Assembly (NCBI RefSeq): GCF_900112415.1 | Contig: NZ_FOLV01000006.1 | Location: forward strand, 106,087-170,086 | Length of the DNA: 64,000 nt | Direction of reading: 5' to 3' | DNA from: Bacillus sp. 491mf | Lineage (GTDB): Bacteria; Bacillota; Bacilli; Bacillales; Bacillaceae_G | Shown here: positions 5,332 to 62,555 of the stretch, piece after piece | Numbering within the stretch: the first letter of the stretch is position 1 | Layout: every line of letters begins with the position of its first letter | Notes under the pieces: model-generated | Told to the model about the DNA's origin: nothing | The model's input: the letters and a program-made list of their open reading frames with translations, nothing else | Databases searched by the model: none | Translations under genes and position numbers: made by a program

Positions 5332-6246
5332 TTAAAAACCTTCGTTTCTCCTAGTCTGTAAAGAGACTTCAATAATCATATCCAATAGCTTGCTATAAGA
5401 GATTCCCACCGCTTGAGCGCTTTTTGGTAGTAAGCTATTTTTTGTCATCCCTGGCAATGTATTCACTTCCATGACATATGGGATTCCATCTTTTATAATC
5501 ATATCAACTCTAGCATAAACACTGCATTTTAATGCCTTATAGCATGCCATTGCAGCCTCAGCGACACGTTTTTGAGTTGTGACTGGAAGTTCTACAATCT
5601 CTTCAATCGTAGCCGCATCATCGTATTTTGCATGATAGTCAAAAAACTCCGCCGTATGTTGAATTGAAATAATCGGTAAAAGTTTTCCGTCTAAAATGGA
5701 ACAAGTAATTTCTTCGCCCTTTATATATTTTTCAATTACAATTTCAGAATCCCATTTGAATACCTCCACAAGCGAGGATAATAAAGCATCCTTATCATAT
5801 ACGATTTTTACTCCTACACTAGAACCACCTGAATTTGGTTTTACAACTAATGGATATCCCATTTTGTCTATTTCTTCAAGTTGAAGCTCTTCCATATTTG
5901 AAATATGAAGCCAATCCGGTGTTTGAATACCCTCATAACGAATCATTTTTTTTGACATATTTTTATCCATACAAATACCGCTTGATAGCATGTTACTTCC
6001 GGTATATGGAACGCCGAGAGTTTCTAGTGTACCTTGAATCGTGCCGTCTTCTCCGTATTTTCCATGAAGTGCTAACAGCGCAATATCAAGATTGCTTATC
6101 TTTTCAACAAGCTCTTTTTTGTCATTAAGTCTAATAGGAACAACTTCGTACTTACTATTATCCAAATGTGCAATCATTTCTTCCCCAGTCATGAGGGACA
6201 CTTGTCTTTCGGAAGATACGCCTCCCATAATCACGCCAACTTTCAT
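5332..6246 (-). CDS. ddl: D-alanine--D-alanine ligase
   Basis: This ATP-grasp enzyme joins two D-alanines for the cell-wall pentapeptide. Visible motifs are the N-terminal GGVSSERQVS, LALHGKYGEDGTIQG, the ATP-binding VVKPNSGGSSVGVK and the metal-binding VMEVNTLPGMT. The 304 residues from the ATG at 6246 match the family. This ATG has a GGGAG site and overlaps the MocR stop codon as ATGA. A TTG five codons upstream would sit inside the binding site and is rejected. The overlap means ddl translation follows that of its probable regulator. Confidence 0.95.
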   Translation of the reverse strand: MKVGVIMGGVSSERQVSLMTGEEMIAHLDNSKYEVVPIRLNDKKELVEKISNLDIALLALHGKYGEDGTIQGTLETLGVPYTGSNMLSSGICMDKNMSKKMIRYEGIQTPDWLHISNMEELQLEEIDKMGYPLVVKPNSGGSSVGVKIVYDKDALLSSLVEVFKWDSEIVIEKYIKGEEITCSILDGKLLPIISIQHTAEFFDYHAKYDDAATIEEIVELPVTTQKRVAEAAMACYKALKCSVYARVDMIIKDGIPYVMEVNTLPGMTKNSLLPKSAQAVGISYSKLLDMIIEVSLQTRRNEGF

Positions 6247-7700
6247 TTTTTCAACTCCCAATTTTCATTTTTTAAGGTATCACCAATTATTTTAATTCCA
6301 TGAACAATATCCTCTTCTTTTAACCGCGAGAATCCTAATCGAAATGTATTACTTCCTCCTCCATCTGAGTAAAAAACATCTCCTGGAGAAAAAACAACTC
6401 CCTTTTGATAGCATTTTTTCAAAAGCATACGTGAATCCAGTCCTTTTTCTAATTCTATAAAAAGATGTAGTCCACCATTTCCAGTCATTCTTTTAAAAGG
6501 AATATATTGATTGCAAGTATGAACGGCTAGCTCATATTTTTTCTTATAAACTGACCTCGCCTTTTTTAAATATTTTTCGAAATAACCATCATGTAAATAT
6601 TGATAAAGCACTGCCTGATCCAGTGTTGATGTATGAATCGTTCGCGCCCTTTTCACACTTTCCAAACAGTGGATTAATTCCTTATCTGCTAAAATCCATC
6701 CAACACGTAACCCTGGAAAAAGAATTTTTGAAAAACTGCTAATATAGACAACATTGTTGCCAGGTCCAGCAAAAGTCATTAAAGGAGCTAAATGAGAACC
6801 TGAATAACGTAATTCCTCATTAAACCCATCCTCCACGATAGGAATTCGATATTTTGAAAAAAGTTTCATAATCTCAGTTCTTTTTTCCGAGGATGTGACA
6901 ATCCCAGTCGGATTGTGATAAGACGGGATTAAGTATGCAAAATCAAAGTCCGTTTCGGATAAGCTTTTCTCAACTTGATCAATATCAATACCATCATCCT
7001 TCATTTCTATCCCGTGTATATCAAATCCATGTAAACGAAAAAGTTTTAGTGCCGCATGATGAGTAGGGTTTTCACAAATAATACGTCTAGATTTTTTAGC
7101 TAAAGAAGACAATAAAATATCCAAGCCCTCGGTGAATCCATTCGTAATAAGAATATCTTTATTGGAAATGTCTACTCCTTTCATTTCCATATAGTGAAGA
7201 AGGTAATCAATTAGAGGTTTATAGCCTTTGGCATATCCGTAGTTCAATACGATGTCTCCTTCAATAGACATTCGAGTCAGAAAAGCCCGTTTAAAATTTT
7301 CAACATCAAACAGCTTTTCGTCCGGAGCGATGCTATTGAAGGAAATCATACCTTTTTCCCAACGAACGCCGTGCTTCATTAAATCTAATTCATCAGCTAG
7401 CAAAGTAGCTTCATTTATCTTTTCTTTCCAGTTTAGTTCGATGGATGGAGTTTTGGACGTTTCAATTTCTCCTACAAAATTTCCTTTTCCCTTTATTGCA
7501 TATATTAGACCAGCTTGCTCTAAATCCGCGTAAGCAGTCAGAACAGTATTTCTGCTGACCGATAATAATTTACTAAGTTCTCGGGTAGATGGAAGCTTTT
7601 GATGCTCCAGTAAGTGTCCTTTCATAATCATCTTTTTTAAATAATCTTTTAATTGAACATACACAGGACGATCATCCACAATTTTAAAATCATTAAACAC
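6243..7700 (-). CDS. MocR-type regulator of the ddl-alr operon (DdlR-like)
   Basis: An N-terminal GntR winged helix (residues 10-75, LPSTRELSKLLSVSRNTVLTAYADL) is fused to a fold-type I aminotransferase domain (about 110-480). The PLP lysine is in SSFSKILFPGLRVGW and the aspartate in IVEDGF. MocR proteins sense PLP adducts of amino acids. Members named DdlR, described in Brevibacillus and Clostridioides, control ddl. The coupling to ddl and alr here makes D-alanine or its dipeptide the likely effector, by inference. It starts at GTG behind AGGGGG. The inverted repeat upstream is probably its own operator. Confidence 0.88.
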   Translation of the reverse strand: MFNDFKIVDDRPVYVQLKDYLKKMIMKGHLLEHQKLPSTRELSKLLSVSRNTVLTAYADLEQAGLIYAIKGKGNFVGEIETSKTPSIELNWKEKINEATLLADELDLMKHGVRWEKGMISFNSIAPDEKLFDVENFKRAFLTRMSIEGDIVLNYGYAKGYKPLIDYLLHYMEMKGVDISNKDILITNGFTEGLDILLSSLAKKSRRIICENPTHHAALKLFRLHGFDIHGIEMKDDGIDIDQVEKSLSETDFDFAYLIPSYHNPTGIVTSSEKRTEIMKLFSKYRIPIVEDGFNEELRYSGSHLAPLMTFAGPGNNVVYISSFSKILFPGLRVGWILADKELIHCLESVKRARTIHTSTLDQAVLYQYLHDGYFEKYLKKARSVYKKKYELAVHTCNQYIPFKRMTGNGGLHLFIELEKGLDSRMLLKKCYQKGVVFSPGDVFYSDGGGSNTFRLGFSRLKEEDIVHGIKIIGDTLKNENWELKK

Positions 7701-47767: not shown

Positions 47768-47947
47768 TTTATCCCGCATTAACGGGCAGTAATACTCCCC
47801 CCTCAAAGTTCGGCGAAAGCATTGTCCAGCTCTAGCGGCTCGTTCAGAAGTTAGGTGGGAGATAAACTGCCCGTAAAAGCCCGATTGGTTCAACTAATAA
47901 TCAGTGGGGGATGAAGAAAACCCCCACTGATTAAAGTTTCACTTTAT
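47768..47947 (+). repeat. bcr1 repeat, copy 1
   Basis: It begins TTTAT-CCCGCATTAACGGGCAG and ends AAAGTTTCAC-TTTAT. It contains ACTGCCCGTAAAAGCCCG and the hairpin AATCAGTGGGGG/CCCCCACTGATT. The TTTAT at both ends is the target duplication reported for bcr1 as I recall. Its apical loop carries an extra TTGTCCAGCTCTAGCGGCT segment. It lies just past the end of the cysteine hydrolase gene. Confidence 0.85.
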
Positions 47948-52522: not shown

Positions 52523-53184
52523 ATGAATCCTTCAAGCTATTTTGATATTAAAAGTGATGAACGTTGAAAAGACAAAATTTCTTTGAACCAACAGCATCAT
52601 ATCCATATTATCTAACCAAATCGAACTACAGAAATAGTAGTCAGCGAGTCACCTGGCAATGGGAAGACCTTGGTGGAGTTATCATTGATGCACCTGCGGT
52701 CACGTCCAAGCATATGAACAACCTAGAAGTTTTTGGGCGCGGAACCGATAATCATTTGTGGCATAAGTATAGGAATGGTTCAAGTTGGAGCGACTGGGAA
52801 GATCTTGGTGGTACCCTTTCCGCCGGTCCAGCAGCTGTTTCTCGGGCAGAAAATTTAATCGACTGTGTTGTACGTGGAATGGATGGTCATGTGTATCATA
52901 AATCTTTTGATCGTTATGGGTGGAGTGATTGAAAAGATCTTGGAGGTTTTATCATCGGTGCACCCGCAATCTCGTCCTGGGGACGAGATTCACTATATGT
53001 TTTTGGGCGCGGAGGCGATAATAAATTACGGACTAGGCATTGGGATGGGCAATGGTGGCCCGAGTGGCAAGAAATTGGTGGTCCCATTATTGCCTCTAGC
53101 CCAGCAGCTGTTTCTCGGACATATGATTACATCGATTGTTTTGCACGTGGAACCAATAATCAATTGTTGCATGCGTATGTCTAA
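52523..53184 (+). pseudogene. PLL-type (DUF346) beta-propeller lectin, broken
   Basis: ATG at 52523 reads MNPSSYFDIKSDER, then a one-base shift leads to KRQNFFEPTASYPYYL and four repeats. Typical units are WEDLGGVIIDAPAV, LEVFGRGTDNHLWHKYRNGSSWSDW and DCVVRGMDGHVYHKSFDRYGWSD. A TGA at 52930-52932 sits where the repeat needs Trp (WSD-W-KDLGG). Such propellers bind fucosylated sugars in Photorhabdus. Two lesions mean it is inactive. An IS3 tail lies downstream. Confidence 0.8.
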
Positions 53185-53250
53185 CTTTTAAGTAACATGA
53201 GTGTTGAAAACTGCCTTTAAGCCAATTTTCCGGACACAAAATAGTTAAAT

Positions 53251-54390: not shown

Positions 54391-55005
54391 TTACACATCG
54401 ACAACTTCATCCCAAATATTAATATCATTTTCATCTAAAATTGCTTTTATTTGATCTTTTTCAAATACTACAAGGTATTCAGCAGGCAATGTTAAAACTT
54501 GAACAATAGAAGGCCTCAACTTTAAAAGTTCATATGCATAAAACGCTTCTAACTCTTCTGTATTGTCCTCATCATTAACAGGGCCTATATACCAACCGGA
54601 GTCACCTGTTTCACAATTTTTTGTTCTCTCTAAGTAAATATCATCTAACTGCAATACATTTTTTGCAGCGACAATTTTGTCACAAAAACGCAGCAATTCC
54701 CCTTCAACTTTTAATTGCTTTACACAACGAACTTGTTTCAATAGAATCCATAAAGAAATTGTTAAATCATCCGTCATATCTTCAAATGGATTCTTTGTAT
54801 AATCATGTACAATAATATGATATCCATCTTCCCTTTGATCAAGAAAGTAAATCGACCACCCAACTTGCATAGAAAACCCATCTATTAATCGATCATTTTC
54901 TACCTCAGATAGAAAATGAAATAACCCCTCTACCTGCACCGCTAAATACTCTTCTGCCTGAGTAATGAAAGTTTTATCCCCGATATTTTTAATAAACTTT
55001 TCCAT
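54391..55005 (-). CDS. Imm33-like (DUF2185) immunity protein
   Basis: The 204-residue acidic protein has a C-terminal domain, DDIYLERTKNCETGDSGWYIGPVNDEDN through LPAEYLVVFEKDQIKAI, that fits the DUF2185/Imm33 pattern (GDSGW core). Residues 1-110 are an extra N-terminal domain without a name. It is the last of four co-directional genes with immunity-like features. That context supports the call more than the sequence alone. Confidence 0.6.
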   Translation of the reverse strand: MEKFIKNIGDKTFITQAEEYLAVQVEGLFHFLSEVENDRLIDGFSMQVGWSIYFLDQREDGYHIIVHDYTKNPFEDMTDDLTISLWILLKQVRCVKQLKVEGELLRFCDKIVAAKNVLQLDDIYLERTKNCETGDSGWYIGPVNDEDNTEELEAFYAYELLKLRPSIVQVLTLPAEYLVVFEKDQIKAILDENDINIWDEVVDV

Positions 55006-55054
55006 TTACGTTCTCCTGTACTCATTTATCTGCAATATACGTAATCATTTTATA

Positions 55055-55786
55055 CTACTCTTTTTTTACTAAAGCCCAAATTCCATACTGATTATAAAAC
55101 AGTTCATCTTCTGCAAAATGTCTACACTCCGTATGTTGCAATATAAAATGAGGATTATTTTCATCTAGGCTGAATGTAGAATAATCCGTTAGGCTAGGCT
55201 TTTCAATGAGATTATACAAACAAAAAACGTTCATTAATTCTTGAGCATATTGCGGCGTTATTTGATCTTTAAAAGTAATTACATCCGGGAGCCCAAAGCA
55301 ATGCATACCACATGTATAGTAAAAATCATCTTCTTCAATCACTGTCACAAAAGCTTGAAATAATTCTACCGCATCATCTGTATGATACATACGATTCCAG
55401 TTTTCAATTGTATTTGCAGTACCTGAAGATTCAACCTTCACGCCAAGTCCTCCAGATTTTACAAGTGCATTTGCAGCATCAACTAACTTTCTTATCTTTT
55501 CAATCGAACCTCCGTCCCCAATTAAATACAGAGTTAAAGAATGTTTTCTAATAAAATCAAGGTCTTCCTCAGTAAATGAATTGTATCCAGCAATTTCAAA
55601 AGCTTCTGCTACTCGTTCATCATGCTCATATATATCAACTTCAAAAAACATACTCGGATCCCCTAGTTTACTAATATAATTCCCAGCGAACATATATCCC
55701 TCGCTTTTTCTTACAATCGCTTCAATAAGTTCACTTCTATTCTTCCATAAACCAGGTATACATAATACAACTTTTGAACTTTCCAT
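55055..55786 (-). CDS. DUF4261 domain protein
   Basis: The 243-residue protein has VVLCIPGLWKNRSELIEAIV at the start, TFKDQITPQYAQELMNVFCLYNLIEKP in the middle and HTECRHFAEDELFYNQYGIWALVKK at the end, which match DUF4261. DUF4261 proteins are found in immunity-gene clusters of Bacillus and are suspected immunity factors. It is cytosolic, acidic and without membrane helices. ATG with a GGGGGAGAATG-type site. Confidence 0.75.
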   Translation of the reverse strand: MESSKVVLCIPGLWKNRSELIEAIVRKSEGYMFAGNYISKLGDPSMFFEVDIYEHDERVAEAFEIAGYNSFTEEDLDFIRKHSLTLYLIGDGGSIEKIRKLVDAANALVKSGGLGVKVESSGTANTIENWNRMYHTDDAVELFQAFVTVIEEDDFYYTCGMHCFGLPDVITFKDQITPQYAQELMNVFCLYNLIEKPSLTDYSTFSLDENNPHFILQHTECRHFAEDELFYNQYGIWALVKKE

Positions 55787-55851
55787 CTCATTCTCCCCCT
55801 ACCCACAGCCTCATATAAAAACAAGTACAATTTCTTATCCAATTGTTTCAG

Positions 55852-56058
55852 TTATTCTTTTTCTTTCTTATAACTTAATGCACTTTCTACTACTTCTCCA
55901 GGTGTTAATTCTATATCATTCCAAAATATTAAATCACTAGGTGCCGGATGTGGAACACCGCTATTATTGAATTCATTCACATATTCGCTATGTTCTGTTT
56001 CTGGTAAATCAAGATTATAGATCTTTTTTACAAGTTCAATAAGTTCCTCTTTGTTCAT
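55852..56058 (-). CDS. Colicin/pyocin-type immunity protein
   Basis: This small acidic protein of about 68 residues reads MNKEELIELVKKIYNLDLPE and later VPHPAPSDLIFWNDIELTPGEVVESALSYKK. The HP-x-x-SDLI core, helices and size match the E-type colicin DNase immunity proteins, which bind and block HNH nuclease toxins. Start at 56058 (ATG) or GTG 56070 behind GAGGTG. No cognate colicin-like nuclease is seen on the same strand; the decayed HNH toxin lies 700 bp away. Confidence 0.72.
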   Translation of the reverse strand: MNKEELIELVKKIYNLDLPETEHSEYVNEFNNSGVPHPAPSDLIFWNDIELTPGEVVESALSYKKEKE

Positions 56059-56092
56059 TTTACTTTCCACATTGTTCAACACCTCAAAGCTA

Positions 56093-56482
56093 TTAATAAT
56101 AAGATACAGCACCAACAAATATAAATTCTAGATCCTCATATGTATCTTTTACTCTCTCTGCATCGTAACGAAAATCATACAGTAATATAACAGAATTCGT
56201 ACTGTCCCCTACATTTACCTTTTTCATTAAATCTTTAAATCTCGGAATAATAATCTCACTATAAGAGAAATCCTGTAAAATCTCTTCTATATGTATTTTA
56301 GGTTCCTCATAAAACATAATTTCTATATTATCTTCATCATAGTAACCAAAACCGAAATTGACTCCAAATTTTGAATCTATACTATCTCCATCTTCTGTAT
56401 ATTCCGTATCAACATATTCTTGAAGCTGATTAAATGATTGACTCGTTCCAAGCCATAACGAAGCCATCCCTTTATATTCCAT
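56093..56482 (-). CDS. Imm22-family immunity protein
   Basis: The 129-residue acidic protein has SLWLGTSQSFNQLQEYVDTEYTEDGDSI, then FGFGYYDEDNIEIMFYEEPKIHIEEILQDFSYSEIIIPRFKDLM and NSVILLYDFRYD, the pattern of Imm22. The ATG at 56482 follows AAGGAG. It is the first gene of the minus-strand array and overlaps nothing; the next gene lies 35 bp on. Its toxin is not in the window. Confidence 0.72.
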   Translation of the reverse strand: MEYKGMASLWLGTSQSFNQLQEYVDTEYTEDGDSIDSKFGVNFGFGYYDEDNIEIMFYEEPKIHIEEILQDFSYSEIIIPRFKDLMKKVNVGDSTNSVILLYDFRYDAERVKDTYEDLEFIFVGAVSYY

Positions 56483-56723
56483 ACCGTCTCTCCTTATCCA
56501 TACTATCCATCGTATAAAAACTTCTTCTCTCGCGTAAACGAACATAATCGCTATTTCTGTAGCGCTATAACACTTCCTATAATACAAGTACACTTTTAAC
56601 ATTTTTTATCTTTTTTATCAATCGGATATAATTCTTCCATTTCAAACATGTCAATTTTAATATAATTCATTTCCTATTTATCAAAGCAAACATTCCTATT
56701 ATTAGGAAAAACTTATTGAATAA

Positions 56724-57425
56724 TTGAATTTTTCGCTCAAAAAGCATTTTATTCCCAAGAGGTTTTTCCATAATGTAAATATTACCAGAAATAAAAAAAT
56801 CTCAATTTTGAATTTTATCAAGAAATCTTTATGTAGTATTGTAACAGACTTTGCATATCCTTATTTTGGACATTGGTATCACGATAATATCTTTGATAAT
56901 TTAGGTGTTATATGGACAGGCCCCGAAATTCGTGTAGGAAATTCAAAATTCGAAGAGGTGCCAGCTGAAACTAAATTTTGGAGTTATTTTGGACAAGCTG
57001 TAGCATATTATACAACTGATTTTAAAAACCCAGCAACAACTAATTGGTCAGAACCTTATGTTGCAGTGAATAGATCAGGAAGGCCATTGCCTGATTACCA
57101 AGATCCATGATCTAAGAAAAAAGCATCTGATGGACTTAGAACTGATTGGGTTCTAGTACCTGCTGATAAAAGAGTTGTGTACGGAGGCACAGAAAGCGGC
57201 ACTGCAATAAGAGAATTTATAAATATGGTAATCCAAACTATATATGGGATGGGAAAATTCCTGGTTACAAACAAATGCATCATATAAAACCTAGAGAATT
57301 TGGTGGTACAAATGATATAGATAATTTTTTTACCAATTCCTGAAGCGGAACATAGTAAGATATCTGGATGGTTTGCTGGATACTATGATAAAAGCTCAAA
57401 AGATATTGACCCAAGTGATGAATAG
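56724..57425 (+). pseudogene. Decayed HNH-nuclease toxin C-terminus
   Basis: The reading passes FAYPYFGHWYHDN, WTGPEIRVGNSKFEEVP, then GRPLPDYQDP with TGA (57108-57110) where Trp is expected. After SKKKASDGLRTDW a one-base loss near 57225 leads to YGNPNYIWDGKIPGYKQMHHIKPREFGGTNDIDN. An extra T in a T-run near 57330 then gives IPEAEHSKISGWFAGYYDKS. HHIKPREFGGTND is an HNH/LHH-type nuclease motif. Three lesions make it inactive, and the N-terminal delivery domain is absent. It lies 33 bp before an SMI1 immunity gene. Confidence 0.78.
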
Positions 57426-57457
57426 TATTTTTATAATAAAGGAAAGGAGGTAAAAAT

Positions 57458-57973
57458 TTGAAAGAGTATAGTGTTAAAAATACACTTGATACATTAAAAA
57501 GTCGTTTAAATGAAAAAGACGAAATAGTGGTTCAATCTTTTAACGGATATTATTATACTGCTGAATGTACGTTTAATGAACCAGCCACACAGGAAGAAAT
57601 ACATACATTCATTCGTGAAACAGGTTGGATTGTGCCAAATGATTATAAAGAATTTTTATTATTGCATAACGGAGCTTATTTCTTTTCTTACGAATATGGA
57701 ACTGCATTTCATTTTTATTCGCTTATGGAAATTCTAAAACGCTATGATAAAGAGTTACATGGAGATAGGTATCCTATTGGTAATTGTCCAGATCGAGGAT
57801 ATATTGTAATAAGTAATGCAAGATGCCAACAAAATAATGATAAATATATGATGTTAAATGGTATTGAATTAATTGATTTTCGATGTGATTTTCAAACCTG
57901 GTTAGATAGAATGATTGTGGCACAGGGAGAATGTTATTGGGAGTGGGTTAGTAAAATAATATACCCTGATTAG
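57458..57973 (+). CDS. SMI1/KNR4-family immunity protein
   Basis: The 171-residue protein has the SukH/SMI1 core TQEEIHTFIRETGWIVPNDYKEFLLLHNGAYFFSYEYGTAFHFYSLMEIL (residues 45-100). CPDRGYIVISNARCQ and a C-terminal FRCDFQTWLDRM follow. This superfamily neutralises nuclease toxins. It starts at TTG behind a perfect AAAGGAGG. It is intact although its HNH toxin gene is broken, so it now serves as orphan immunity. Confidence 0.87.
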   Translation: MKEYSVKNTLDTLKSRLNEKDEIVVQSFNGYYYTAECTFNEPATQEEIHTFIRETGWIVPNDYKEFLLLHNGAYFFSYEYGTAFHFYSLMEILKRYDKELHGDRYPIGNCPDRGYIVISNARCQQNNDKYMMLNGIELIDFRCDFQTWLDRMIVAQGECYWEWVSKIIYPD

Positions 57974-57976
57974 AGT

Positions 57977-58134
57977 TTTATCCCGCATTAACGGGCAGTA
58001 ATACTCCCACCTCAAAATTCAGCGAAAGCAAAGAAGTTAGGTGGGAGATAAACTGCCCGTAAAAGCCCGATTGGTGAGGGCTAATAATCAGTGGGGGATG
58101 AAGAAAACCCCCACTGATTAAAGTTTCACTTTAT
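57977..58134 (+). repeat. bcr1 repeat, copy 2
   Basis: The shortest complete copy (148 bp between the TTTAT repeats). CTCCCACCT/AGGTGGGAG pairs perfectly in the central stem. It begins 4 bp after the SMI1 stop codon. Confidence 0.88.
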
Positions 58135-58267: not shown

Positions 58268-59419
58268 TTAAAAACCCTGTTGTACACAATAAATATCGTT
58301 AATCTTCGCTACAATCTCATCAACAGCGTACAAGACTTCTTCTTCACTTAAATATGGACTAATTGATATACGAATGGAACTATTTGCTTCTTCTTTTGTT
58401 AATCCAATCTCTTGTAACACATATGACGGTTCTAAACTACTTGAGTTACAAGCAGATCCTGAAGAGATAGAAACAGTTCTCATACCTGCTATAAGTGTTT
58501 CTGAACTAATGTTTGGAATCATTATATTTATAATATGAGGTATACTATTTTCCATGCATACATTTACGCAAGAATGAGGTATTTCTTGTTGAATTCGCTT
58601 TACAACAATTGTTCTTAATCTCTTTACCTTTTCATAATTTTCTTCTAGTTCTAATATAGCAATATCACTTGCTGCTCCCAGACCAGCTATTAGTGAAGTC
58701 GGTAATGTCCCACTGCGTAAATATGTTTGTTCACCACCAAATAGTAAAGGCCGGAAGTCTTTCTGTTTGTGTCCATTTACATATAAAACGCCTATGCCTT
58801 TTGGTCCATAGATTTTATGTCCCGATAAAGATAGAGCATCGATATCTAATTTTTTTACATCGATTGGTATTTTTCCAAAAGCTTGAACAGCATCTACATG
58901 TATCAATGTTTTATACTTTCTGCACAGAGCAGAGATTTCATTGATAGGCTGAATTGTCCCAATTTCAGAATTAACATATGCAAAACTAACAACCCTTGTA
59001 TGATCATCTAACAAGTATCGCAATGAATCTAAACAAATCGTTCCATCACGATTAATATCCACATATTTTACGATAATCCCTCTTCTTTGTAACTCTTTTC
59101 CGACTCCTAGAATCGATTTATGATCTATAGGAGAGAGAATTACATTTACCGGTTCTTGTTCATAATAATCAATGGCTCCTAATAATGCCAAGTTATTACT
59201 TTCTGTTGCACCTGAAGTAAATATTATTTCTTCTTTATCGGCACCAATAGAAGTGGCAATTTTACTTTTCGCTTGATCAACTGCATACTGTGCTTTTTTT
59301 CCCATCACATGCTGAGACGATGGATTTGCAAATTCTGTTTTCATGTACTTCTCCATCACTTCAACCACTTTATTATGACATGGAGTGGTAGCAGCATAAT
59401 CTAAGTACACTTGTCTCAT
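58268..59419 (-). CDS. Cysteine desulfurase (NifS/IscS-like)
   Basis: This PLP enzyme converts cysteine to alanine plus enzyme-bound persulfide. The 383-residue protein starts MRQVYLDYAATTPCH. Conserved motifs are TSGATESNNLA, the His of IDHKSI, VDAVQAFGKIPIDV and the PLP lysine in LSLSGHKIYGPKG (Lys202). The active-site loop SSGSACNSSS holds Cys324. The ATG at 59419 is 9 nt from AGGAGG. It ends a unit of tRNA-Cys and an unknown gene, from which a bcr1 insertion separates it. No scaffold or tRNA-thiolase gene adjoins. Confidence 0.94.
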   Translation of the reverse strand: MRQVYLDYAATTPCHNKVVEVMEKYMKTEFANPSSQHVMGKKAQYAVDQAKSKIATSIGADKEEIIFTSGATESNNLALLGAIDYYEQEPVNVILSPIDHKSILGVGKELQRRGIIVKYVDINRDGTICLDSLRYLLDDHTRVVSFAYVNSEIGTIQPINEISALCRKYKTLIHVDAVQAFGKIPIDVKKLDIDALSLSGHKIYGPKGIGVLYVNGHKQKDFRPLLFGGEQTYLRSGTLPTSLIAGLGAASDIAILELEENYEKVKRLRTIVVKRIQQEIPHSCVNVCMENSIPHIINIMIPNISSETLIAGMRTVSISSGSACNSSSLEPSYVLQEIGLTKEEANSSIRISISPYLSEEEVLYAVDEIVAKINDIYCVQQGF

Positions 59420-59433
59420 AAACATTGTCCTCC

Positions 59434-59637
59434 TTTATCCCGCATTAACGGGCAGTAATACTCCCGCCTCAAAATTCAGCAAAAGCATTGTCCAGCTCTA
59501 GCGGCTAGAATCTCCGGCGTTTCCGCTTTTCTTAAGAAATTAGGCGGGAGATAAACTGCCCGTAAAAGCCCGATTGGTGAGGGCTAATAATCAGTGGGGG
59601 ATGAAGAAAACCCCCACTGATTAAAGTTTCACTTTAT
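59434..59637 (+). repeat. bcr1 repeat, copy 3, inserted between operon genes
   Basis: It is flanked by TTTAT on both sides. The left end directly abuts the cysteine desulfurase ribosome binding site. The right TTTAT overlaps the stop codon of the gene at 59637-60530. The central stem is CTCCCGCCT/AGGCGGGAG, a compensated change relative to copy 2. The apical loop is longer and carries TTGTCCAGCTCTAGCGGCT plus CGGCGTTTCCGCTTTTC. Confidence 0.88.
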
Positions 59638-60530
59638 TAAGAAGAAAACACAGAGAAATTAATAGGCTTTTCATAGATTTCTTCCTTGGACATTTCACCG
59701 CTTCCTCCCGGATCTGCAACGATAACTTTCATACCTGTTAAATTATATAGATTAAGAGCAATTTCAATCCCTGTACGTACTGGCTGGTAACACTCCCCAG
59801 GCGCGAATAACAACAATGCTCTATAACCCGCTTTATATACCTCAGCAATCATTTCTGTAATTTCTCCTGCACATCCAGTTACACCGCAACTAATTAATGT
59901 TTTATAATTTCCATCTTCATCTAAAAACGATACTTCAGATTGATTGTCTTGATCATTTAACATTCTTTTTTCTAATTTTCCTTCTTTTACTAGCTTACTA
60001 GCGCTTTTTTGAAATCTATATTTAAGCCAAGTTTCCGGAAAAAAGATTGGATTTTTTCGGCTAGACAAAATACTTTGTTGATTAAAATACTTACTCTTTT
60101 CTAAACTTGTAACGTAAGCCTCTGGAATTTCTGTATATCTTTCATAAAATTCTTTACGAAGATCGCTAACACTTGCATTTGTAGAAGGGACATATTGCCA
60201 ATCATTAATTAATAACAGGAATTTAATGTCTTTAAATTGTTCATAAAATTGCTCCCCTAACTGAATTCCAATATCCCAAGTATACATAGGGAATATACCT
60301 ACTCTGCGTGAAATTCTCTCTTTCATTACGTCTGTTTTCTGCTCTTCGGTAATTCCAGGAGTTAAGTTATTCGTTTCTTCATTAAAGAAAAGCATAAAAT
60401 GTCCTGACATAATTACTAATTTTTCTTGAGTGGTATTTTTTAATTCTTCACTGATTAATTTGATCATTTCTTCTTCTGATGCAACTAATTGATGAATTCC
60501 TTTCTTTTTTACATGAATTGAATTTGACAT
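59637..60530 (-). CDS. Unrecognised three-cysteine protein in a tRNA-Cys operon
   Basis: The 297-residue cytosolic protein (MSNSIHVKKKGIHQLVASEE...) matches no family I recognise. Residues 35-115 look alpha/beta with hydrophobic strands (LVIMSGHFMLFF, IKFLLLINDW). Three cysteines cluster in the C-terminal third: Cys215 and Cys220 (ISCGVTGCAG) and Cys247 (FAPGECYQP), suggesting a metal or persulfide site. VADPGGSGEM follows. GGGGG lies 7 nt before the ATG, and the tRNA 3' end is only 25 nt upstream, so tRNA and gene share a transcript. Cysteine desulfurase follows. Confidence 0.75.
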   Translation of the reverse strand: MSNSIHVKKKGIHQLVASEEEMIKLISEELKNTTQEKLVIMSGHFMLFFNEETNNLTPGITEEQKTDVMKERISRRVGIFPMYTWDIGIQLGEQFYEQFKDIKFLLLINDWQYVPSTNASVSDLRKEFYERYTEIPEAYVTSLEKSKYFNQQSILSSRKNPIFFPETWLKYRFQKSASKLVKEGKLEKRMLNDQDNQSEVSFLDEDGNYKTLISCGVTGCAGEITEMIAEVYKAGYRALLLFAPGECYQPVRTGIEIALNLYNLTGMKVIVADPGGSGEMSKEEIYEKPINFSVFSS

Positions 60531-60555
60531 ATGTTATCCCCCTTAAAATGGATAG

Positions 60556-60626
60556 AGGCAGTGCTTGGATTTGAACCAAGGAATTAGGTTTTGCAGACCT
60601 ATGCCTTACCACTTGGCTACACTGCC
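60556..60626 (-). tRNA. tRNA-Cys (anticodon GCA)
   Basis: A 71-nt cloverleaf with acceptor GGCAGTG/CACTGCC, D stem GCC/GGC and anticodon stem TAGGT/ACCTA around loop CTGCAAA. T stem is CTTGG/CCAAG around TTCAAAT. The discriminator is U73, as needed for CysRS. All stems pair fully, though acceptor and T stems differ from the usual Bacillus tRNA-Cys (GGCGGCA...). The 3' CCA is not encoded (CTA follows). It lies alone in the 5' leader of a protein gene, not in a tRNA cluster. Confidence 0.95.
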
Positions 60627-61111
60627 ATTTCATAAAGTTTAGCTGCCAATTTGAAACTTGCCTATCACGTTGTTAATGGTATTATTAGTAAAACGAATCG
60701 TCAATAAATATTTTGAATATAATTATTTTTCTCAACATTAAAGTGAATACCTAGAAAATCTATTGAAAATAAAAGCATTCAAATAAAACAAAGGGATATA
60801 CATACGATTCTAAAATAGGAGTTTTTTTAAAATATAACCACATAACATTTTTTCTGTTTTATGAGTAATTACTCTGGATAAATTTCTCAAATTATATTCA
60901 ACTTTTTATTTTGCAAATCTAAGCTATATTATGCTACGGTTAGTTATGATTTTTAGAAATTTTTGGTTTATATACGCGAAAGAATTTTCCAACTTATAGA
61001 AATCCAAAAATAATTTAATCGTATGTAAACAGTTAAATATCAAAACAACAACAAGCAACATTACAAATAAAAATCCTTAATAGTGAAAATTTATTAAGAA
61101 AGGAATTCTTT
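60627..61111. other. Divergent intergenic region
   Basis: It holds the tRNA-Cys promoter on the left and presumably the EamA promoter on the right. About 350 bp of AT-rich DNA between show nothing recognisable. Confidence 0.5.
60676..60704 (-). promoter_or_regulatory. Promoter of the tRNA-Cys operon
   Basis: On the minus strand TTGACG (60699-60704), 17 bp, TACCAT (60676-60681). Transcription would begin near 60669, about 43 nt before the tRNA. Confidence 0.5.
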
Positions 61112-62068
61112 ATGTCTAAACAAACACTTGCTTATATTCAAATTTCATTTGCAATGATTGCAATTGGAAGCTTTGTGGTTGTTAATAAATTCATTATTAA
61201 AGAACTTCCCATATTTATTGCTTCTGAGCTTAGATTATTAATTGCTTGCCTCATACTACTTCCTTTATTTTTATATAAAGGAGAAAAAATGCCGAAACTC
61301 GTAAAAAAGGATTACATCATATTTTTTCTTCAAAGTTTTATAGGTGTGTTCTTATTTAGCATATGCACGTTATATGGACTAAGAAAAACAACAGCTTTAG
61401 ACAGCGGCATTATTATGAGTTGTACACCTGCAATAATGGCTTTAATCTCTTATTTTTTTCTAAAAGAAAAACTAGGAATTCATAAAATAGGAGGAATTCT
61501 TTTAACCATTTTAGGTACATTATCTATTAATGTTTTTGGACAGTTTTTAAATTTTAATGAAAACTCCCATTCATTAATAGGAAATATACTAATCTTTTGC
61601 GCTGTTATTGGAGAAGCAGTTTTCTTTTCATTTGGAAAATTAATTTCCACATCTTTAAGACCTTTAACAATAACGACAATTATGAGTTTGACAGGCGCCG
61701 TATTATTTTTGCCTTTGGCAATGTATCAGTCCTTACATTTTAACTTTTTTACTGTCTCTCCATTGATATGGTCGCTAGTACTATATACGGGGATTGTAAT
61801 TACTGTGCTAGCAGTTCTATTAATGAACCAAGGATTAGAAGTAGTATCAGCGGGAACCGCAGCAGTATTTACTGCTTTAATGCCGATAAGCACCGTCGTT
61901 TTATCAGCCCTTATCTTACATGAACCTCTTTTCTGGTATCATATTTTCGGTATGCTATTGGTTATGGGGGGGATTTTTGTGATTACGAACTCTTCAAGTA
62001 AAAGTACAGTTACAAGTAATGAAATATTTCCAAAAAGCAGGAACGAAAATATGAGTTCTGATGCATGA
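61112..62068 (+). CDS. EamA/DMT-family transporter
   Basis: The 318-residue protein has ten membrane helices in two EamA repeats (SFVVVNKFIIKELPIFIASELRLLIACLILLPL; FCAVIGEAVFFSFGKLIS ... IFGMLLVMGGIFVIT) and a short polar tail. AAAGGAATTCTTT precedes the ATG. It is the third EamA gene of the window. Unlike the other two it has no MocR partner. It is divergent from the tRNA-Cys operon. The substrate is unknown. Confidence 0.9.
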   Translation: MSKQTLAYIQISFAMIAIGSFVVVNKFIIKELPIFIASELRLLIACLILLPLFLYKGEKMPKLVKKDYIIFFLQSFIGVFLFSICTLYGLRKTTALDSGIIMSCTPAIMALISYFFLKEKLGIHKIGGILLTILGTLSINVFGQFLNFNENSHSLIGNILIFCAVIGEAVFFSFGKLISTSLRPLTITTIMSLTGAVLFLPLAMYQSLHFNFFTVSPLIWSLVLYTGIVITVLAVLLMNQGLEVVSAGTAAVFTALMPISTVVLSALILHEPLFWYHIFGMLLVMGGIFVITNSSSKSTVTSNEIFPKSRNENMSSDA

Positions 62069-62443: not shown

Positions 62444-62555
62444 ATAAAGTGAAATTTCCATCAGTGGAGAGTTTTTTCATCTCCCACTGATGGTTAGCCC
62501 GCCCAATCGGGCTTTTACGGGCAGTTATCCCCTACCTATCTATCTTCCCTAAAAA
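62444..62555 (-). repeat. bcr1 repeat, copy 4, truncated
   Basis: Reverse orientation: ATAAAGTGAAA at 62444, then hairpin ATCAGTGG/CCACTGAT, then CGGGCTTTTACGGGCAGT. It lacks the distal half; a GC-rich repeat segment (AGCGGAAGCGGCTTGCTCAG) and then the IS1182 element follow. Confidence 0.75.

Follow-up and report, generated by a model that had tools for sequence, protein, structure and literature searches.

An LPD16-family gene and a cysteine desulfurase gene that travel with a tRNA-Cys in Bacillota: a possible cassette for a sulfur-containing small molecule

In the window, a 64,000-nucleotide stretch of Bacillus sp. 491mf DNA (contig NZ_FOLV01000006.1) that was analysed as a whole, a tRNA gene and two protein-coding genes follow one another on the minus strand. 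The tRNA-Cys(GCA) gene (60555..60626; ARAGORN, an Rfam tRNA score of 72.2 bits, and position tables) ends 24 nt before the start codon of a 297-codon gene for a protein of the LPD16 family (59637..60530; Pfam LPD16, alignments, AlphaFold, Foldseek, and VIA-align), which is followed by a gene for a cysteine desulfurase of the NifS/IscS/DndA type (58268..59425; Pfam Aminotran_5, NCBIfam, PADLOC, and alignment). The first-pass annotation of this DNA had described a complete, solitary tRNA-Cys ahead of two co-oriented genes, and this description holds: the tRNA is the only one that ARAGORN finds in the 64 kb, does not have its CCA encoded (T, then CTAT), and shows, in the position tables, genuine compensated stem differences from the usual tRNA-Cys of Bacilli. 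It has U73, keeps U33, and carries a 4-nt variable loop and the T stem CUUGG/CCAAG. A terminator between the tRNA and the LPD16 gene, which the same annotation had named as evidence that would speak against its reading, was not found when the window sequence was scanned for terminator-like sites.

Homologous loci were collected by a scan of a genome collection of 84,980 species, which reaches close relatives only and yielded 47 loci; with two Priestia plasmids and the window, these make up the 50 loci considered here. In all six loci from Bacillota, tRNA-Cys(GCA) lies just upstream of the LPD16 gene on the same strand, a linkage that is more than chance. One copy is present in the window, in Halalkalibacter (L001), and in Caldalkalibacillus (L003), two are present in Paenibacillus (L002), and the plasmids carry four in Priestia megaterium (L048), with a period of 145 nt, and two in P. 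aryabhattai (L049). Between the last tRNA and the start codon lie 24 to 34 nt in five of these six loci and 256 nt in Halalkalibacter, where part of the gap is filled by a decayed second tRNA-Cys (L001, 5815-5871; identity in 47 of 59 aligned columns, with a score of 33 versus a maximum of 19 in 500 shuffles). Outside the Bacillota, a tRNA-like gene is found 40 nt upstream of the LPD16 homologue of Brucella pecoris (L042, 5861-5936). It scores just over the Rfam cut-off (29.6 bits), is 76% identical to the tRNA-Ala(GGC) of its own genome, has G3:U70 and U73-CCA (discriminator U), and has its anticodon arm replaced by a 16-nt stem that ends in a GAAA loop. Six genomes without an operon tRNA contain one or two ordinary tRNA-Cys genes each, none of them at the operon, by a pattern search that a degenerate tRNA would escape; likewise, Rfam searches with E up to 10 gave no tRNA in L004, L005, L007, and L008. 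A leader of about 120 nt is conserved in 12 Photorhabdus and Xenorhabdus loci (alignment A3) and has no likeness to a tRNA; a tRNA-like leader was considered for these loci and dropped, its consensus fold being almost devoid of covariation (term -0.14).

Judged by sequence, no operon tRNA is a copy of a host gene in the three hosts covered by this comparison, Halalkalibacter, Paenibacillus, and Caldalkalibacillus. The native tRNA-Cys genes of these hosts sit elsewhere, in tRNA arrays, and the nearest relative of each operon tRNA is another operon tRNA. Thus, the Halalkalibacter gene is 88% identical to its nearest operon counterpart versus 82% to its own host gene; copy 1 of Paenibacillus is 94% identical to its sister copy and 85 to 86% to the other loci versus 72% to the host gene; and for Caldalkalibacillus the values are 85% versus 66%. 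The anticodon GCA and U73 are kept in all seven distinct operon tRNA types, as is the GG of the D loop (G18-G19), the loss of which can mark a non-proteinogenic tRNA. Compared with a first control of 24 distinct tRNA-Cys (35 genes), picked by similarity near the Halalkalibacter gene, every operon type differs at pairs 50-64, 51-63, and 27-43 and, from all but two, at 6-67. Because this control had been chosen by similarity, a wider one was fetched from 20 places with weaker matches, 18 of which gave 19 Bacilli tRNA-Cys genes, some of them near-identical. Three of the candidate marks had to be rejected against it: 10 of the 19 genes are not C-G at 50-64, 10 of the 19 are U-A at 6-67, and A27-U43 is present among them. 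Hence, only 51-63 and U33 discriminate.

According to the excerpted texts of PMC11231383 and PMC8219837, pairs 49-65, 50-64, and 51-63 set the affinity for EF-Tu. Pair 51-63 is C-G in 41 of the 43 control tRNA-Cys (24 plus 19) versus none of the seven operon types, which have U-A (window), A-U (Caldalkalibacillus and Priestia), or a C.A mismatch (Halalkalibacter and both Paenibacillus copies), so that all seven appear to carry the weak T-stem pair expected of an EF-Tu-avoiding tRNA. All 43 controls have U33, the base that forms the U-turn in nearly all decoding tRNAs, but it has given way to C33 in both Paenibacillus copies and to G33 in Caldalkalibacillus. In the protein tree, Caldalkalibacillus and Priestia are paired (99/97), the window and Halalkalibacter form a second pair (96/83) that is joined by Paenibacillus (99/94), and a single clade of the five Bacillota is weakly supported (47/31). 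The T-stem types follow this tree, except that the window is grouped with Halalkalibacter yet has its own type, and U33 was lost in both branches, to different bases. Separately, we came upon an isolated further Bacilli tRNA-Cys (gene L156, at 2589-2662 of the 3.9-kb contig L159) with U-A at 50-64 and U.G at 51-63; the small genes beside it look unrelated to the operon, the open reading frames of at least 80 aa on this contig are by eye not LPD16-like, and the gene is perhaps another specialised tRNA.

The 297-aa protein matches Pfam LPD16 over residues 100-196 (E 7.2e-10). With E up to 1, Pfam gave beyond this match only one sub-threshold, unrelated one, and NCBIfam and PADLOC gave nothing; a cyclodipeptide synthase (CDPS) profile match was absent from the Pfam and NCBIfam scans. 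As a domain, LPD16 is treated in one relevant paper (PMC5512222, in its excerpted text). The window protein was aligned with 46 homologues that are 48 to 66% identical to it (alignment A1, with L033, L047, and L049 left out), and this alignment minus its plasmid row (A2) was used for fold prediction. In the AlphaFold model (mean predicted local distance difference test score, 83.5), Foldseek and VIA-align point to the catalytic Rossmann fold of class I aminoacyl-tRNA synthetases, with arginyl-tRNA synthetase (ArgRS) as the best match followed by the cysteinyl (CysRS) and methionyl (MetRS) enzymes, and the predicted fold may accordingly be called CysRS-like. Among the 50 matches listed per model there is no CDPS and no tyrosyl- or tryptophanyl-tRNA synthetase (TyrRS/TrpRS), an absence that excludes nothing. 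The catalytic-domain match reaches residue 286-290 of 297, and the protein therefore seems to lack an anticodon- or tRNA-body-binding domain. The HIGH and KMSKS motifs have been lost, the patterns H.GH or HIGN and KMSK or K[MLFI]SKS occurring in none of 47 LPD16 proteins; the loop that follows the last Rossmann strand has the sequence GGSGE and then becomes variable. C215, C220, and C247 are invariant in the family. A profile search of solved structures gave a best E of 0.034 and was not used.

A desulfurase-family gene is located directly downstream of the LPD16 gene in 48 of the 50 loci, the other two being L031, where a methyltransferase gene comes next, and L047, where the contig ends. In the former, from Photorhabdus thracensis, the LPD16 and methyltransferase genes occupy 6001-7554 with no desulfurase between them. 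The window desulfurase (Pfam Aminotran_5, E 1.5e-78) remains below the NCBIfam cut-off for DndA (351.3 bits versus 480) and scores 436.9 bits with the PADLOC model SspA and 432.4 bits with DndA; the pyridoxal phosphate lysine K204 and the catalytic C326 are kept in 48 of 48 aligned family members. Further neighbours were grouped by family clustering, with Pfam run on one representative per family. EamA exporters of one cluster turn up in the DNA fetched for L001, L002, L004, L048, and L049 as well as in the window; the one in the window (61112..62068, plus strand; EamA of the drug/metabolite transporter [DMT] type, Pfam E 4.2e-43) lies divergently upstream of the operon. A D-Ala-D-Ala-ligase-like ATP-grasp gene is present in five loci (both Priestia plasmids, the Pseudomonas loci L004 and L047, and the Brucella locus L042) and an S-adenosylmethionine (SAM) methyltransferase gene in 14 (8 Photorhabdus, 4 Xenorhabdus, and 2 Burkholderia). 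The ATP-grasp gene of L047 belongs to the same cluster as that of L004. Of the 27 actinomycete loci, 26 have a condensation-domain gene of the nonribosomal peptide synthetase (NRPS) type upstream on the same strand, 25 have an AMP-binding gene, which in 14 of them is upstream and co-oriented, and 26 share a family whose L027 representative is an ABC-2 transporter. To judge from these gene families, the neighbours look like a building-block module in small biosynthetic clusters whose product probably leaves the cell.

Hosts of LPD16 are found among Bacillota, Gamma-, Beta-, and Alphaproteobacteria, and Streptosporangiaceae. The cassette is patchy, as fits horizontal spread: carriers, every one of them an already-known member, number 2 among 398 sampled genomes in the class Bacilli, 1 among 104 in the family of Paenibacillus, 1 among 347 in the order of Brucella, and 1 among 41 in the family of Halalkalibacter. 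Plasmid searches with LPD16, and also with the Brucella homologue as query, returned only the two Priestia records, and the operon DNA itself matched no plasmid record. In a comparison bearing on the window's host, plasmid matches span 1 to 2% of the query (80 to 92% identity), which suggests a Bacillaceae-like origin and nothing narrower. At the sensitivity of the searches used, viral contigs gave no confirmed LPD16 relative and phages gave no match. A partial, more distant LPD16 relative (41%) sits at a contig end in Pseudomonas guariconensis (L047, 4937-5392).

How might these parts work together? We regard the evidence as evenly poised on whether this is a horizontally spread cassette that makes a small, sulfur-containing, exported molecule, with a dedicated tRNA-Cys in Bacillota. 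The first-pass annotation had likewise suggested a unit dedicated to some use of Cys-tRNA and desulfurase sulfur. That suggestion is borne out in part, by the tRNA linkage in six of six Bacillota loci, the tandem copies, the non-housekeeping tRNA sequences, the predicted synthetase-like fold, and the exporter or tailoring genes nearby; the use of Cys-tRNA itself we infer. In Bacillota, the cassette would bring one to four copies of the dedicated tRNA-Cys just ahead of its genes. The host CysRS would charge this tRNA, since the anticodon GCA and U73 are kept, and the weak or mismatched T-stem pairs, together with the loss of U33 in some copies, might keep the resulting Cys-tRNA from EF-Tu and the ribosome. 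The LPD16 protein, which appears to be a class I synthetase fold minus the ATP signature motifs and the tRNA-body-binding domains, would then take the activated cysteinyl group from the tRNA. The neighbouring desulfurase could supply persulfide sulfur, possibly onto C215, C220, and C247, which is the least certain step. Depending on the lineage, the building block would be tailored by the products of the ATP-grasp ligase, methyltransferase, or NRPS genes and subsequently exported, as the neighbours suggest. Phyla without a local tRNA would use housekeeping tRNA-Cys.

A more specific version, which we put forward tentatively and consider rather unlikely as it stands, is that LPD16 represents a new aminoacyl-tRNA-consuming family with an ArgRS/CysRS-type fold that joins desulfurase sulfur to the cysteinyl group of a non-decoding tRNA-Cys, for instance with release of a cysteine thiocarboxylate or an amino-acid persulfide, the tRNA serving as an acyl carrier encoded in a mobile operon. 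The anticodon-less tRNA-Ala-like element of Brucella pecoris would then follow the same principle, using a different tRNA deprived of its decoding function.

Several observations weigh against the proposed cassette as a whole. As many as 43 of the 50 loci have no local tRNA (L030 being covered for 316 nt upstream), which makes the tRNA a feature of the Bacillota plus one odd tRNA-like gene in Brucella pecoris; the comparison of homologous neighbourhoods proposed in the first-pass annotation thus came out in favour of the desulfurase and not of the tRNA. The window tRNA keeps U33 and fully paired stems and could therefore decode. U50, U6-A67, and A27-U43 also occur in ordinary tRNA-Cys of the wider control, two ordinary control genes (L150 and L156) have U.G at 51-63, and one unrelated housekeeping tRNA-Cys is as close to the Halalkalibacter operon tRNA as one Paenibacillus copy is (85% identity in both cases). 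In addition, the Bacillota operon tRNAs may descend from one capture, in which case the seven types are not seven independent events. As to the protein, hhalign profile comparisons with ArgRS and CysRS from the fetched genomes revealed no sequence similarity, so that the kinship with synthetases is one of predicted fold, and the two fold models share most of their alignment rows. Finally, one LPD16 homologue (L031) has no adjoining desulfurase.

The main rival explanation, which we consider unlikely, is that LPD16 is an ATP-dependent ligase resembling MshC or a thiolating enzyme of the HUP fold that adenylates a carboxylate and inserts persulfide sulfur from the desulfurase, while the tRNA tops up a Cys-tRNA pool drained by the pathway. 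A CysRS-like predicted fold is shared with MshC, the mycothiol cysteine ligase; however, HxGH and KMSKS patterns occur in 0 of 47 family members, and a tRNA that merely replenishes the pool should keep U33 and ordinary T-stem pairs, which the operon copies do not. Self-protection, in which the variant tRNA evades an exported product that inhibits CysRS or sequesters tRNA-Cys, would account for the adjoining exporter and the multiple tRNA copies, but copies without U33 would decode, and hence protect, poorly, and we think this improbable. We would give even less credence to the tRNA being a substrate that the gene pair thiolates or otherwise modifies. Desulfurases do feed tRNA thiolases, and the predicted synthetase-like fold suggests tRNA binding, but the tRNA is missing at most loci, and exporter, NRPS, methyltransferase, and ATP-grasp neighbours have no obvious place in tRNA modification. 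Equally hard to credit is a cis-acting role in the mRNA leader, such as a processing or stability signal: the constant strand, the spacing to the gene (24 to 34 nt from its start codon in all Bacillota loci but Halalkalibacter, where it is 256 nt), and the failure to find a terminator-like site before the gene in the window would suit it, whereas the two to four tandem copies, the retention of GCA and U73 in seven of seven types, and the leaders of other phyla, which have no tRNA save the odd Brucella gene and are not tRNA-like in Photorhabdus and Xenorhabdus, would not. Both of these last ideas had been offered in the first-pass annotation, and the U33 losses, the tandem copies, and the different leaders in other phyla speak against them. 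That the tRNA is present by chance, for instance as an integration site, seems scarcely credible even though islands often lie at tRNA genes and the cassette is patchy in the genomes sampled, given that the tRNA travels with the cassette in six of six Bacillota loci and that the operon tRNAs of Halalkalibacter, Paenibacillus, and Caldalkalibacillus are not native array genes.

The promoter that the first-pass annotation placed upstream of the tRNA can be matched to a weak candidate, TTGACG-17-TACCAT (60676..60704, minus strand; 9 of 12 matches), and TTGAGA-17-AATATT (60735-60707, minus strand) is also promoter-like, but such sites are not above chance, numbering 11 in the scanned region versus a shuffle mean of 15.2. 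Between the LPD16 and desulfurase genes lies a 202-bp copy of an interspersed repeat (59436..59637) that has acquired an insertion of 46 bp. The repeat, of about 156 bp, has four copies or part copies in the window (57979-58134, 59436-59637, ~47770-47943, and 62448-62546), and part of the insertion recurs in the 47.8-kb copy; we take it to resemble the bcr repeats known from the Bacillus cereus group. The stretch 54391-57973 holds immunity-like genes (Imm33-like, DUF4261, Immunity protein 22 [DUF4284], and SMI1/KNR4), perhaps what is left of a polymorphic-toxin locus, and two overlapping frames of 122 and 108 aa at 52564-53191 appear by eye to be pieces of one lectin-like gene.

If our proposal is correct, one more fold lineage joins the few enzymes known to channel aminoacyl-tRNA into small molecules, and a Pfam family with no assigned function gains a role. 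Housekeeping and dedicated tRNA-Cys that naturally coexist in one cell would offer a test of how an aminoacyl-tRNA stays out of translation. The proposal would also draw attention to a class of metabolites, so far unexplored and probably containing sulfur, in Paenibacillus, Priestia, Photorhabdus, Xenorhabdus, and rare actinomycetes.

Our literature searches did not retrieve a paper on this LPD16-desulfurase-tRNA cassette, but related systems are on record. According to excerpts of PMC11641026, cystocin-like clusters hold tRNA-Cys genes, for which the authors propose a role as aminoacyl-tRNA donor for Pur6/CstB, an enzyme unrelated to LPD16, and some hosts carry the tRNA whereas others may use their own. 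In common with these cystocin- and puromycin-like clusters, as there described, the present loci have a tRNA-Cys or similar RNA in the cluster in some hosts only (in six of six Bacillota loci), a methyltransferase, and a spread over actinomycetes and Xenorhabdus/Photorhabdus. In contrast, the tRNA of the present cassette sits in Bacillota, and Pur6, as far as the same excerpts go, has a mass of 84 kDa and resembles gingipains in structure only in part, whereas LPD16 is a 297-aa protein, predicted to be class I synthetase-like, with a desulfurase beside it. CDPSs have a Rossmann fold like that of class I synthetase catalytic domains and take the aminoacyl group from aminoacyl-tRNA (PMC7566563, excerpt); they resemble TyrRS/TrpRS in that text, whereas LPD16 matches ArgRS best and pairs with a desulfurase. 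Compared with MshC, LPD16 has no HIGH/KMSKS-like pattern, the loss of which argues against MshC-like ATP-dependent activation of cysteine, and no sequence similarity to CysRS was found. SbzA of the SB-203208 pathway, an isoleucyl-tRNA synthetase (IleRS)-like, aminoacyl-tRNA-dependent natural-product enzyme, keeps the full IleRS architecture in the excerpted account (PMC12945691), whereas LPD16 corresponds to the catalytic domain only. The peptide aminoacyl-tRNA ligase (PEARL) TglB of 3-thiaglutamate biosynthesis uses Cys-tRNA for a sulfur amino acid analogue (PMC9016710) but is, in the part of that paper concerned, a LanB-related ligase acting on a peptide scaffold, unlike LPD16. For the tRNA, the non-proteinogenic tRNA-Gly of the Staphylococcus aureus cell wall offers a parallel: its weak T-stem pair A51-U63, thought in the excerpts of PMC4052509 to avoid EF-Tu, is the pair found in the Caldalkalibacillus and Priestia operon tRNAs, although the operon tRNA-Cys, unlike that tRNA-Gly as described, retain G18-G19 and form part of a biosynthetic cassette that is mobile. 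In summary, the cassette is of a known kind, that of CDPSs, SbzA, and cystocin, but differs in its enzyme family, which is unnamed, in having a desulfurase as partner, and in a tRNA whose decoding defects recur.

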